Source: an uncultured Roseiflexus sp. (GTDB lineage Bacteria > Chloroflexota > Chloroflexia > Chloroflexales > Roseiflexaceae). From it: 47,417 nt of DNA. The translations under genes and the position numbers were made by a program. The DNA is taken from positions 1-47,417 of the forward strand of contig CALGYB010000089.1 of assembly GCA_937935075.1 (NCBI GenBank), written 5' to 3'. Numbering within the stretch: the first letter of the stretch is position 1; each line of letters opens with the position of its first letter. Under the pieces are notes generated by a model. It searched no databases and was not told where the DNA came from. It saw nothing but the letters and a program-made list of their open reading frames with translations. Below are positions 3,428 to 47,417 of this stretch, in pieces.

Positions 3428-3790
3428 ATGCTGGACGATGAGTTGCATGTACATATTCGTGAGCGTGAAGGGGTGGCGATTATTGATCTGGTCGGTGATG
3501 TGACGACCTTCGCCGAGGAAAAGATTAACGGCGCCTATAATGAGGTTTCGCGCAAAGGCGCACGAAACATTCTGCTCAACTTTCGTCAGAACGATTATAT
3601 CAACAGTGCTGGCATCGCCATCCTGATTGGAGTCGTCACCGAAGTCAATCGAAATAATCAGCGACTGGCTGTCAGCGGATTGTCGCAACACTTTCAGAAA
3701 ATCTTTCGCATGGTCGGTCTGGCGCAATATATCGATATTTATCAGGACGAAGACGAGGCGATTCGCGGCCTGACCGCCGCAATGGCTTGA
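3428..3790 (+). CDS. STAS-domain anti-sigma factor antagonist (RsbV/SpoIIAA type)
   Basis: 120 residues, a single STAS domain. The segment YINSAGIAILIG carries the Ser expected to be phosphorylated by an RsbW-type kinase; when unphosphorylated it would sequester the kinase. I place the start at ATG 3428, preceded by AGGAG at 3414-3418, rather than at the in-frame ATG 39 bases upstream, which lacks a ribosome site and would add 13 atypical residues. It lies 90 bases after the second kinase gene, completing a kinase-kinase-antagonist module. Which of the two kinases it serves cannot be told from sequence. Confidence 0.9.
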   Translation: MLDDELHVHIREREGVAIIDLVGDVTTFAEEKINGAYNEVSRKGARNILLNFRQNDYINSAGIAILIGVVTEVNRNNQRLAVSGLSQHFQKIFRMVGLAQYIDIYQDEDEAIRGLTAAMA

Positions 3791-37308: not shown

Positions 37309-37337
37309 TTGACAGCGCCACGATCATCGTGTACGAT
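37309..37337 (+). promoter_or_regulatory. Sigma70-type promoter of the C-minus ribosomal cluster
   Basis: TTGACA at 37309-37314, 17-base spacer, TACGAT at 37332-37337. Transcription should start near 37344, just before the palindrome at 37347. Confidence 0.7.
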
Positions 37338-37346
37338 CTCAAACCA

Positions 37347-37363
37347 GTGATTGATTCTATCAT
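37347..37363. promoter_or_regulatory. Putative Fur/Zur-type operator, site 1
   Basis: GTGATTGATTCTATCAT matches 14 of 17 bases of the perfect palindrome ATGATAGTTTCTATCAT at 46774-46790. It starts 9 bases after the -10 box and lies 16 bases before the start codon, a classic repressor position. Assignment to the Fur-family protein at 45154 is inferred. Confidence 0.6.
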
Positions 37364-37379
37364 TTGGGAGACAACCGGC

Positions 37380-37613
37380 ATGGCGGAAAAGAAGTCCAAA
37401 ACCGACGTTACTGCCCGTGACAAGACCGGTCGGGCCACCAACCGGCATTGCAACCACTGTGGGCAGCGGATTATGAACGACCGCGAGATGATTGTGATCA
37501 TGGACGGACGGCGTCGCAACAAGACGTACTACCGTCGAGACTGCTTCAACCGTCTGGTTGGCGCAGAGCGGGAACTGGGGCTGGATGGATCGCAGACCTG
37601 CCCGCTGCGCTGA
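37380..37613 (+). CDS. Small Cys protein leading the C-minus ribosomal cluster, unknown
   Basis: 77 residues; ATG 37380 with GGGAG ahead. C24-N-H-C27, then C55 and C74, with YYRRDC and a basic N-terminus. This suggests a small zinc-ribbon-like or nucleic-acid-binding protein, but it is not S14, L31, L33 or L36 as I know them. It is first in the operon with L28 and S18 and has the operator immediately upstream. Its cysteines make it unlike its zinc-free partners. No function assigned. Confidence 0.8.
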   Translation: MAEKKSKTDVTARDKTGRATNRHCNHCGQRIMNDREMIVIMDGRRRNKTYYRRDCFNRLVGAERELGLDGSQTCPLR

Positions 37614-37636: not shown

Positions 37637-37912
37637 ATGGCGAAGTGTGATCTTACTGGCAAGAAAGTCGCCTTTGGGCGCAATATTCGTCACAAGGCGT
37701 CGGGAGGATGGGCGCGCCGCGCGCCGAAGACAAATCGCACCTTTCGTCCCAATGTTCATCGCCACACGATCTACGTGCCAGAGATTGGGAAAAGCGTTAC
37801 TCTCAATCTGTCGACGAAGGCGCTCAGAATTATCAACAAGAAGGGGTTGCTGGCAGCAATACGCGATCAGGGGCTGTCGGTCGAAGCATTTCTCAAGGAG
37901 CACGAACGATGA
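37637..37912 (+). CDS. rpmB: Ribosomal protein bL28, zinc-free (C-minus) form
   Basis: 91 residues, clearly L28: [27 protein letters not shown] and the C-terminal [13 protein letters not shown]. In zinc-binding L28 the start reads CxxC (for example CDVCGK) and a second CxxC precedes the final helix. Here position 7 is Thr, and LSTKAL has Ser and Ala at those second sites, so no zinc knuckle can form. This is the form typical of zinc-starvation paralogues. AAGGGA precedes ATG. It overlaps the S18 start by four bases. Confidence 0.93.
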
Positions 37913-38175
37913 CATCTCAAGATGGAGGACGGCGTATGCGCGGACGTGTCGGGCGCAAGAAAGTCTGTGAGTTTTCGCGTCTTGGTATTCTGCCCGATTA
38001 TAAAGACCCAGAGCGGCTCAAGCGGTTTCTGGGACCGACGGGAAAAATCCTGCCGCGCCGTCGCACCGGTCTGACGGCGAAGATGCAGCGGCGGTTGACG
38101 ATTGCAATCAAACGCGCCCGGCATATGGCGCTGCTGCCGTTTGTGGAACGCTCGATCACCGACCGGCGGCGCTAA
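37909..38175 (+). CDS. rpsR: Ribosomal protein bS18, zinc-free (C-minus) form
   Basis: 88 residues. [46 protein letters not shown] and [13 protein letters not shown] are S18. Zinc-type S18 has CxxC at the first segment and Cys in TGTC; here only C20 remains (C20-E-F-S23) and the later site is Thr (TGLT). The ATGA overlap with rpmB indicates translational coupling. The primary S18 gene is normally beside rpsF and ssb, which are absent here, supporting a second copy. Confidence 0.92.
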
Positions 38176-38275: not shown

Positions 38276-38599
38276 GTGACTCATACCATCCACGATCCGC
38301 ATTCTCATGTTCACAGCGAACATTGCGGACATCTGCGCATTCTGCACGACGGGCATGTTGACTATCTCCACAATGGGCATCTGCATCACCCGCACGAAGG
38401 ACATTACGACGAGCACGTGATCGCTGTGAGCGCCGAGAATCCAGACGGATGCGCACCTGTTGCGTGTCAGTGCGGGCATGACGATTGCGGGCATCCGCTG
38501 GTTCCACACGGCGATCACGTCGATTATCTGGTCAATGGGAGACTGCACCACCGTCATGGTGATCACTGTGATGACCACGGTCTGGTGACGGTGCTGTGA
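38276..38599 (+). CDS. His-rich metal-binding protein with duplicated unit
   Basis: 107 residues from GTG 38276, set by AAAGGAGG 7 bases ahead. About 25 His and 6 Cys. Two related units are visible: HCGHLRILHDGHVDYLHNGHLHH and DCGHPLVPHGDHVDYLVNGRLHH, each followed by H-x-GHYDEH or HGDHCDDH. No signal peptide. It likely stores or carries zinc or another soft metal in the cytoplasm; this fits its place beside zinc-sparing ribosomal genes. Function is inferred from composition. Confidence 0.85.
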   Translation: MTHTIHDPHSHVHSEHCGHLRILHDGHVDYLHNGHLHHPHEGHYDEHVIAVSAENPDGCAPVACQCGHDDCGHPLVPHGDHVDYLVNGRLHHRHGDHCDDHGLVTVL

Positions 38600-38694: not shown

Positions 38695-39264
38695 CTATGC
38701 CAGATCGAACGTCCGCGCCCTGGGGCCGCGATCGCTCGCTTCAACCGTCACCGAAATCTGATCACCTTCCTGGATCGACCGGCGTACCTGGCTGAACAGC
38801 GATCCGTGGACATACACGTCAAACTGCGGATCATCGACCCGGGCAAAGAGAAAGCGCCCGGCGGGATCGATGCGCACAATCGTGGCGCTGACCGGGCCCG
38901 ACGGCAGCGGACCGGTGTACGGTTCACGGTCACGCCGCGATCGATCGCCCGACCAGCCGCGCGATTCGCCGCGCGGACGATCATACGAGCGCGACCAGTC
39001 ATCAGAACGCCGTGGACGCGCCCCGCTGCTAGCTTCATTCGCTTCGTCAGTGATGCGTCCCTGACCGGAAACATCATTTGGACAAATACGTCCGCCAGCG
39101 ATGTCGGTCAGGCTTCTCCCTTCCTTTCGTGCCCGACGCCCTGCCGGACAACGGGTCGGATCGTTGGTGAAACCTTTTTGTGCGTAGAACTCCTGCTCGC
39201 CTGCCGTGAAGATGAACTCGCCACCGCAATCCTTGCACGGAATGCGCCTGTCCTTGAAACTCAT
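38695..39264 (-). CDS. Zinc-ribbon plus cold-shock-like domain protein, incomplete zinc site
   Basis: 189 residues. The N-terminus (IPCKDCGGEFIFTAGEQEFYAQKGF...TRCPAGRRARK) is the 'probable zinc-ribbon' domain. That domain normally has four Cys; here C10, C13 and C39 are kept and the fourth, expected at 42, is Gly. A disordered Arg/Ser/Asp-rich linker (about 75-118) leads to an OB/cold-shock-like domain (GPVSATIVRIDPAGRFLFARVDDPQFDVYVHGSLF). Probable nucleic-acid binder. Promoter and two palindromes lie 140-200 bases upstream. Confidence 0.85.
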   Translation of the reverse strand: MSFKDRRIPCKDCGGEFIFTAGEQEFYAQKGFTNDPTRCPAGRRARKEGRSLTDIAGGRICPNDVSGQGRITDEANEASSGARPRRSDDWSRSYDRPRGESRGWSGDRSRRDREPYTGPLPSGPVSATIVRIDPAGRFLFARVDDPQFDVYVHGSLFSQVRRSIQEGDQISVTVEASDRGPRARTFDLA

Positions 39265-39403: not shown

Positions 39404-39420
39404 ATGATCTTGCCTATCAT
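39404..39420. promoter_or_regulatory. Putative Fur/Zur-type operator, site 2
   Basis: On the minus strand ATGATAG-GCA-AGATCAT, matching 12 of 17 bases of the 46774 palindrome; the outer AAATGAT/ATCATTT arms are perfect. It begins 11 bases after the -10 box of the promoter at 39432-39461. Confidence 0.5.
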
Positions 39421-45153: not shown

Positions 45154-45618
45154 ATGAGCCGTTTTCTCGAAGAGCGACGACATATGCTGCCGCCAGCAGT
45201 GACGGATCTTGCCGAACAACTGGCAGCCGCCGGATACAAAGTGACCCGTCCGCGCCTGGCGGTGCTCAAGGCGATCACGGCCCTGCCAGGCGCATTCAGC
45301 GTTCAGGAGATCGAGCAGTGGCTGGTCGAGCGCAACGAGTCGCCGGGGATCGCCAGCATCTTCCGCACCATCAGGCTTCTCTGCGATCTCGGCATGCTGC
45401 AGCGCATCCACGGTCTCGACGATTGCCACCGCTACTGCCTAGGAAGCGGGCATGCCCATCATCTGGTGTGCACCCAGTGCGGCGTGATCGAACGGTTCGA
45501 CAACTGCGGGTTGCAGGGGGTGATTTCGACGCTTGAGCAAGCGACGGGCTACCGCATCACCAACCACGTCGTCGAACTCTTCGGCCTCTGCCCGCAGTGC
45601 CTGGCAACGTCGGCATAG
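45154..45618 (+). CDS. Fur/Zur-family metalloregulator
   Basis: 154 residues; AAGGAG 7 bases ahead of ATG. Winged helix (YKVTRPRLAVLKAI...SIFRTIRLLCDLGML), then HRYCLGSGHAHHLVCTQCGVIERF with sensor-site His and C106-x2-C109, and C146-x2-C149: the structural zinc site of Fur-type proteins. Whether it senses zinc or iron cannot be proved by sequence; the C-minus ribosomal genes behind a shared palindrome favour zinc. It converges with the UPF0718 permease gene 11 bases apart. With metal it would act as repressor. Confidence 0.9.
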   Translation: MSRFLEERRHMLPPAVTDLAEQLAAAGYKVTRPRLAVLKAITALPGAFSVQEIEQWLVERNESPGIASIFRTIRLLCDLGMLQRIHGLDDCHRYCLGSGHAHHLVCTQCGVIERFDNCGLQGVISTLEQATGYRITNHVVELFGLCPQCLATSA

Positions 45619-45629
45619 TCTATCGCCGC

Positions 45630-46760
45630 TCAGGCAAACAGCCAGTTGAGCAACAACCCCAGCAGCGCTACGTAGGCAGCGTACCAGAGGACGACCTTAA
45701 CGGCGCTTGCCCGACCAATCAGCCGATTGAGCATGGCCCACTCGGGGATCGAAGAGACGGTTGTTGCCATCATTGCCGCCACCAGCGTTCCGATCGGCAC
45801 AATCTGGTGCAACGCCACCAGAATTGGCGCTGTTGACGCAGCATTGATGTCGAGCGGCAGACCCAGAACCGTTGCGGCGAGCGGTCCCCACCAGGCGGCG
45901 CCTGCCTGCTTCAGACCTTCAACGAGTGTCAGGTTGAAGTTGACCAGGATCCCCGCCAGGAACCCGCTGAACAGGATGACGCCAAACAACCGCTTGAACA
46001 GGGCCCACGCTTCACGGTGTGCACGAACCAGAATGCTTTCCTGTTTCGCCGAGCAGCACGTGTGTTGTGGCACAATCTGCTGAATAAAACGAGCCGGGTC
46101 CAACCCCAAAAGCGGCGCCAGATACGCGGTTGCCAGCGCAGCGGCAAACCCTGCGACTACATAGACCAGCCCGCCGAGCGGTCCGACGATGACAAACATG
46201 AAGATAATAGCAAACTCGTTCAACGCCGGGCTGGCAAACAGAAATGCCGAGGAAGCGCGCTGACTCGCGCCGCCGGCCACGATGCCCGCGTAGATGTTGG
46301 TGACCGTGCAGGAACAGACCGGTGTCGCCATGCCCAGCACTGCGCCGCCCGCTGCTCCGGCCAGGTCATTCCTCCCGATTGAGCGTTCGATCCATGTCGT
46401 GCTGATGCGCAGACGCAGCAGCGTCATTCCATAGGTCGTCAGAAAAAGAATGATCGGTAGTTTGAACCATTCGTAAATGGTGTACGACGCTGTGTATTTC
46501 ACGTCGAGCGGTCCGAACGGGGTAGGGATGATCCAGGCGGGCATCCAGGAGGTGAGCGCAGCGCCGAGCGCCTTGCCGGCATTGGCGATTGGCGCCTCAA
46601 AAACCGGAACCACATGCCTCATCTCGGCGCCCGACACCCAGGCGCTCAGACTCTGGAACATCACCTGAGCCACGATCAGTGCCAGAACGATCAGCGAAAC
46701 GACCGGCATCACGCGCTCGAATGACTCGCGCTTGACGGGGAAAACAGCCCGGCTGGACAT
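45630..46760 (-). CDS. UPF0718/YraQ-type permease
   Basis: 376 residues from ATG 46760 with GGAGGGT ahead. About eight to ten helices with the family motif TPVCSCTVTNIYAGIVAGGASQRASSAFLFASPALNEFA in the middle and a duplicated half near LPLDINAAST. A cytoplasmic or loop segment has HTCCSAKQ. These permeases are thought to move small or metal-related substrates; none is proven. It is preceded by a TTGACA promoter and the perfect palindrome at 46774, so it is likely controlled by the neighbouring Fur/Zur-type protein. Confidence 0.85.
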   Translation of the reverse strand: MSSRAVFPVKRESFERVMPVVSLIVLALIVAQVMFQSLSAWVSGAEMRHVVPVFEAPIANAGKALGAALTSWMPAWIIPTPFGPLDVKYTASYTIYEWFKLPIILFLTTYGMTLLRLRISTTWIERSIGRNDLAGAAGGAVLGMATPVCSCTVTNIYAGIVAGGASQRASSAFLFASPALNEFAIIFMFVIVGPLGGLVYVVAGFAAALATAYLAPLLGLDPARFIQQIVPQHTCCSAKQESILVRAHREAWALFKRLFGVILFSGFLAGILVNFNLTLVEGLKQAGAAWWGPLAATVLGLPLDINAASTAPILVALHQIVPIGTLVAAMMATTVSSIPEWAMLNRLIGRASAVKVVLWYAAYVALLGLLLNWLFA

Positions 46761-46773
46761 ACACCCTCCATAG

Positions 46774-46790
46774 ATGATAGTTTCTATCAT
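46774..46790. promoter_or_regulatory. Putative Fur/Zur-type operator, site 3 (perfect)
   Basis: ATGATAG-TTT-CTATCAT, extended to 23 bases with a TA/TA outer pair. It lies 8 bases after the -10 box and 14 bases before the permease start codon. Best copy of the palindrome; the other two are at 37347 and 39404. Confidence 0.65.
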
Positions 46791-46798
46791 TTATGGTG

Positions 46799-46827
46799 AC
46801 TGTACATCATAACATTCTCCCTGTCAA
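46799..46827 (-). promoter_or_regulatory. Promoter of the UPF0718 permease gene
   Basis: On the minus strand TTGACA (46827-46822), 17-base spacer, TACAGT (46804-46799). The -35 box touches the stop codon of the upstream gene. Confidence 0.6.
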
Positions 46828-47396
46828 GAGAGAAGAGCGCTCTGCTGCACCAATTGTTGCCATTCCTCAACCAGACGTTCCACCGGAATGGAAAAGGTCT
46901 GCTTCGTTGACTCTGAGACGCACTGTTGCCGGTATTCGATGCCGCAGGAGTCGCGCACCCATGTTTCGTACTGTGCAATCCATTCGAGTAACGCAACGAA
47001 CTGCCGGCGCATCCGTTGCTGCACGTCTGTTTCGCGAGGAATGACCGTAACACGCATCTGATCGGGAAGCCACGGTAGACGCCGGGTGTCGATCCGGGGA
47101 ATATATTGTGGAGTAAACTCGTATCGCTTGAGATAGACGCCGCCGTTCGCCGGGCTGCCGCAGAACGCGCCAAACCCCCAGAGCACGATGACCATGTCTG
47201 CATCAGTTGTCTTCATATATGCGCTACTTCCCGCGGCTCCGACTGGCGGACGCTGGCGGCTGAACCCGTATTCCAGCAGCAGGTTCCCTTCAGGACGGCG
47301 AATGTCGCACCCCCAGAGCCAGCACTGGAGATGCAGCAGTTCTGCGCCGCGTTGCCGCAGGCGCGCCGGAAGCGGCAGCCATGAGCGAGTGGTCAT
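46824..47396 (-). CDS. Conserved hypothetical protein
   Basis: 190 residues from ATG 47396, with AGGAG ahead; a TTG one codon upstream is an alternative. Has LLHLQCWLWGCDIRRPEGNLLLEYGFSRQRPP, GFGAFCG and YIPRIDTRRLPWLPDQ, which look like a conserved domain, plus a helical C-terminus with several Cys (C172-type positions). No family or fold recognised. The same strand as the permease but with its own start before the operator. Confidence 0.65.
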   Translation of the reverse strand: MTTRSWLPLPARLRQRGAELLHLQCWLWGCDIRRPEGNLLLEYGFSRQRPPVGAAGSSAYMKTTDADMVIVLWGFGAFCGSPANGGVYLKRYEFTPQYIPRIDTRRLPWLPDQMRVTVIPRETDVQQRMRRQFVALLEWIAQYETWVRDSCGIEYRQQCVSESTKQTFSIPVERLVEEWQQLVQQSALLS

Positions 47397-47417
47397 CAAT
47401 GCGCTCCTGTTGTCGCC

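Follow-up and report, generated by a model that had tools for sequence, protein, structure and literature searches.

The locus at 37380-37613 of an uncultured Roseiflexus sp. raises the question of why a cysteine-bearing protein should stand first in an operon for zinc starvation. An earlier note, made from the sequence alone, had regarded such a product as unexpected and had suggested that it picks up zinc released from ribosomes or binds ribosomes as a hibernation-type factor. Our analysis of the window (the whole stretch of 47,417 nucleotides) and of related genomes favours another reading. The protein, called B here, is probably a Zur-controlled zinc-starvation stand-in, with an altered metal site, for a housekeeping treble-clef zinc finger, called A.

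The operon led by B

The operon contains the following features, given by position and strand.

37309-37337, +: promoter-like TTGACA-17-TACGAT, read directly from the sequence; a similar TTGACA lies at the same place in relatives
37348-37362, +: operator TGATTGATTCTATCA of the 7-1-7 type before B; TGATAGT-N-ACTATCA in relatives
37380-37613, +: gene of B, 77 residues, with a treble-clef-like finger (C24, C27, R52, which is His in A, and C55) and a tail cysteine (C74)
37637-37912, +: bL28 paralogue with its zinc ligands lost, the motif having changed to LSTKA (TIGR00009/PF00830; compared with the C-plus copy of a relative)
37909-38175, +: bS18 paralogue with its zinc ligands lost, CxFC becoming CEFS and GxCA becoming GLTA (TIGR00165/PF01084; compared with the C-plus copy at G000:C197)
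38276-38599, +: His/Cys-rich protein of 107 residues with a GTG start, downstream of bS18 and possibly in the same operon; no Pfam match

The exact reading of 37380-37613 on the forward strand gives the 77-residue frame with C24, C27, C55 and C74 that the earlier note had described. When the gene was compared with those of four related genomes, 21-23 synonymous and 5-7 non-synonymous codon differences were found, and 24-27 of the approximately 30 base changes fall at third positions; the frame is therefore a real coding gene. It directly follows the promoter-like element and TGATTGATTCTATCA and is succeeded by ligand-poor bL28 and bS18, which agrees with the place given to it before, that of the first gene behind the operator of a zinc-starvation operon. 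As an example of the ligand loss, the housekeeping bL28 of the relative G006 reads MATCEICGKK...CTKC as against MATCMLTGKR...LSAKA, and the housekeeping bS18 of the genome itself (G000) reads KVCLFCADQI...GVCARH as against ...GLTAKM.

The 107-residue protein was also observed near the operon in G001, G003, G004 and G005. It carries two repeated segments of the GDHVDYL-NG-LHH type and is a possible metal binder. In G004 the frame of B (G004:C39:1678-1836, L029) breaks off at residue 41 and continues as the C-terminal end of bL28. Either a deletion took the rest of B together with most of bL28 and kept the operator and bS18, or the assembly is in error there.

Two paralogues and their metal sites

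Searches with B gave no NCBIfam match, no Pfam family above the cut-off and nothing over the cut-off in PHROGs. The match to DUF7576 (PF24461) reached 15.7 bits (E 0.014), below the curated cut-off of 27 bits. No ribosomal family was found in Pfam or NCBIfam, which bears out the statement that B is not a known ribosomal paralogue. The search for homologues and their gene context, a check that the earlier note had proposed, thus returned no known family over the cut-off, and it did place the B forms of relatives in zinc-starvation clusters.

The family was found in 20 of the 60 nearest relatives, all of them Roseiflexaceae, and a class-level search found it in 22 of 158 genomes, where the two outside Roseiflexaceae are weak matches. 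Roseiflexus and further Roseiflexaceae carry it, and distantly related proteins are encoded in other Chloroflexota. Two forms can be told apart across the relatives: form A has about 61-66 residues and the pattern C-x2-C...YHHRxC, and form B has 77-82 residues, the pattern C-x2-C...YYRRxC and a tail ending in G-x3-C-P. Form A of the same genome has 61 residues, is encoded apart from the operon (C106:3641-3823) and is 75% identical to B over its length. In a tree of 23 A, B and outgroup sequences, A forms one group and B another, with moderate support (81/85 and 79/77). By these sequence comparisons, B is a paralogue of A in a family largely confined to Roseiflexaceae. Genomes that bear B also have A with the exception of G018, where A was not found, and neither form was found in some Roseiflexaceae (for example G007 and G011); A is therefore not strictly universal.

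In Kouleothrix-like genomes (L055, L015), A lies upstream of bS6, ssb and bS18, which hints that the family has a role connected with translation. As a link of A to the ribosome this context was set aside as too thin, being limited to that one genus with a gap of about 200-260 bases.

A histidine three residues before the last finger cysteine was observed in all A forms and in the distant relatives L083, L084, L210, L211 and L213-L215, and arginine replaces it (H52 to R52) in all seven distinct B forms. The loss is derived because every outgroup sequence in the tree has the histidine. The three finger cysteines are retained and a C-terminal cysteine is gained in every B form, so the cysteines that had drawn attention to the protein are conserved. 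This tail cysteine lies exactly 18 residues after C55 and is followed by proline (C55-x18-C74-P) in 7/7 distinct forms, where the intervening residues vary. C74, at this fixed distance in the new tail, is the likeliest substitute for H52, the lost fourth ligand of the finger.

Structure prediction, which had also been suggested, gave a knuckle, a hairpin and a helix in the AlphaFold2 models of both A and B. Residues 52 and 55 are located at the start of the helix, and on this arrangement the predicted fold is treble-clef-like. Confidence is modest, with a pLDDT of about 76-87 in the finger region, means of 64 and 71 for the two models and values below 50 in the C74 tail; neither this tail nor the N-terminal tail has resolved structure in the models. 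DUF7576 (PF24461), zf-dskA_traR, the PARP zinc finger and eL24/eS26 share the C-x2-C knuckle, the hairpin and a helix with two further ligands, whereas B lies below every family cut-off and its fold matches are weak. The fold search matched eS26, eL24 and PARP fingers without significance (Z about 4, Foldseek E about 1), and we used these matches solely as support for the term treble clef, since they show no function. Searching solved structures by sequence gave chance matches alone, for example to ankyrin repeats.

B keeps three cysteines and adds one, whereas typical zinc-free paralogues lose cysteines, and for this reason it may still need metal. We consider a four-cysteine site that would be filled at low zinc and a fold with little need of metal to be about equally probable, with a slight lean towards the relocated site. 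The cysteines might alternatively hold a metal-free fold by disulfides or form a thiol switch (C24/C27 and C55/C74), and their conserved number is indeed even once the histidine is lost. However, C24-x2-C27 is still a standard zinc knuckle and stable disulfides are unusual in the cytoplasm, which makes this reading highly improbable.

Operators and gene neighbourhoods

The following features lie further downstream in the window.

38695-39264, -: protein with a zf_Tbcl treble clef (PF13451, E 9e-21) and a cold-shock-like domain; the fourth finger cysteine is lost and a new Cys-Pro stands 20-21 residues later
39405-39419, +: weaker site resembling the operator, TGATCTTGCCTATCA, before the zf_Tbcl gene, at the same offset in G000, G001 and G003
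45154-45618, +: Fur-family regulator, likely Zur (PF01475, E 9e-21), located close to the B cluster in several related genomes
45630-46790, -: predicted permease of the ArsP_1 family (PF03773), whose true start is probably downstream of the operator
46775-46789, no strand assigned: operator TGATAGTTTCTATCA before the permease, from the operator pattern search
46824-47399, -: protein of 191 residues (CWLWGCDIRRPEGNLLLEYGF...), no Pfam family

A 7-1-7 palindrome is one reported form of the Zur box (PMC6103462). Allowing up to two mismatches, the operator search of the window gave four matches, at two places, where 0.63 would be expected, and in 100 shuffles the count never reached four. In ten genomes the pattern occurred 7-27 times, compared with 0-3 times for a reversed control. 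The operator reads TGATAGT-N-ACTATCA in G012, G017 and G018, and Roseiflexus and G009 have the variant TGATTnn-N-nCTATCA. An operator was found upstream of all six distinct B forms that lead an operon and of the truncated copy in G004, compared with 0/16 A forms; the seventh distinct B form (G006) lies inside a longer operon. Operator sites also adjoin COG0523 genes (G000 C187, G003 and G018) and, in this window, the permease that neighbours the Fur-family gene. The Fur-family protein encoded at 45154-45618 is likely Zur and would bind the operator of B in a zinc-dependent way. A second Fur-family gene is present in G000, and our literature search found no paper on Zur in Roseiflexus.

Operator-like sites in L203 (G000:C187), at 3681, and in L207, at 4475, are flanked by a glutathione-peroxidase-like gene on one side and a small zinc-ribbon-like gene on the other, in the vicinity of COG0523 genes. 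The ArsP_1-type permease, being placed behind a palindromic operator and next to the Fur-family gene, is a candidate Zur-controlled transporter. A relative of the 191-residue protein recurs in the B operons, which are zinc-starvation clusters, of G009, G012, G017 and G018.

Among the genomes with B, the gene always lies within a zinc-starvation cluster. B is clustered with bL28 and bS18 in G000, G001, G003, G005 and G009, with COG0523 in G012 and G017, and with COG0523 and bL28 in G018. The cluster of G006 runs znuA-znuC-znuB-bL28-bS18-B-COG0523, where the znu genes were named by sequence reading. No second bL28, bS18, bL31 or bL33 was found in G012 and G017 despite the presence of B; these genomes have a single bL28, bS18 and bL31 and one or no detected bL33. 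B is therefore not tied to the swapped ribosomal proteins.

This last observation bears on both suggestions of the earlier note. For a ribosome-bound or hibernation factor made under zinc starvation, one may cite the position of B at the head of the operon, ahead of bL28 and bS18, in Roseiflexus, its basic N-terminal tail, a faint resemblance in fold to treble clefs of ribosomal proteins (eS26 and eL24, for example), and the bS6-ssb-bS18 context of A in one genus. The fold matches are not significant, however, the family searches match no known hibernation family, and B occurs in G012 and G017 with none of the swapped proteins. The A/B family may act at the ribosome, and we found no positive support for a hibernation-type factor, which we consider very unlikely. 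That B is a scavenger of zinc released by ribosomes would fit conserved cysteines within a zinc-starvation operon, and we give this almost no weight. A twin with the complete ligand set sits outside the operon and has no operator, and B, which has lost a finger ligand, is present in G012 and G017, where no second bL28, bS18, bL31 or bL33 was found; nothing positive was found for such a pick-up of zinc.

The neighbouring zf_Tbcl gene has a similar change of ligands. Four-cysteine relatives (CRDC...RCPSC) were found in all or nearly all of the 14 genomes searched, where the type at 38695-39264 reads CKDC...RCPAG or RCPLR and has its new Cys-Pro 20-21 residues on. In G012, G017 and G018 the altered gene is part of the operon that contains B. 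B and the altered zf_Tbcl protein have in common the pattern C-x2-C-x25-27-C-x18-21-C-P, in which the helix ligand is lost and a Cys-Pro stands 18-21 residues downstream. At the level of sequence we regard this as a suggestive parallel, because the C-terminal half of the altered protein is a different, cold-shock-like one and G013 has a copy of it although a search for B gave no match there. It is a possible, rather doubtful generalization that the zinc-starvation copies in this clade shift their fourth ligand and keep the zinc site, by which a low-zinc or exchangeable site would arise convergently, perhaps to be filled by a COG0523 chaperone.

Alternatively, B could have a new job as a zinc-holding or relay protein with an exchangeable four-cysteine site, for example one that works with the COG0523 GTPase as its client or partner. 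All four cysteines are conserved at fixed spacing, B directly precedes COG0523 in G006, G012, G017 and G018, and the ligand shift in the neighbouring zf_Tbcl protein is similar. In Roseiflexus and G009, however, B accompanies bL28 and bS18 and not COG0523, and its finger and N-terminal tail are closely similar to those of A, which fits an unchanged binding partner. We therefore consider such a new function unlikely.

B as a probable stand-in for A

A cysteine-bearing product in a zinc-starvation operon is more readily understood if it is an alternative paralogue and not a scavenger, since B duplicates A and occurs in a Zur-type operon in G012 and G017, genomes that yielded no second bL28, bS18, bL31 or bL33. 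Alternative paralogues of zinc proteins are known members of Zur regulons, in which they adjoin COG0523 genes (PMC2770081). When zinc is plentiful, Zur on the TGATnnn-N-nnTATCA operator would repress B, bL28 and bS18. When zinc is low, B would be made and would assume the job of A, as the ligand-poor bL28 and bS18 would replace their zinc-bound twins. In the altered metal site, arginine takes the place of H52 and C74 in the new tail would substitute for it.

The closest comparison is with DksA2 of Pseudomonas aeruginosa, a Zur-repressed paralogue of the zinc-finger protein DksA1, which has two cysteines against four in DksA1 (PMC9213440). In both cases a housekeeping zinc finger has a paralogue with an incomplete ligand set for zinc starvation, and Zur repression would be common to them if our reading of the B operator is right. 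The proteins belong to different families, and DksA2 with its two cysteines holds no zinc (PMC9213440), whereas B keeps three cysteines and has a fourth in the new tail. Like the C-minus bL28 and bS18 of Zur regulons, with which it shares operon and operator, B differs in its ligands from a housekeeping twin, and it has a C-terminal extension as bL28 does here; unlike them, it belongs to no known ribosomal protein family and has lost one ligand only. MRF (MSMEG_6069), a CobW/COG0523 protein in a mycobacterial cluster of alternative ribosomal proteins (PMC7174638), is a non-ribosomal member of such a zinc-starvation cluster as B is. The difference is one of protein type, B being a 77-residue zinc-finger-like protein that COG0523 follows in some relatives.

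Our literature search found almost nothing on zinc starvation in Chloroflexota. The repeated loss of one ligand with the gain of a downstream Cys-Pro poses the question of whether low-zinc paralogues are zinc-free or have a site rebuilt for low zinc. If B is the stand-in for A, it would be a new, non-ribosomal zinc-finger member of the small set of proteins exchanged by bacteria under zinc shortage.
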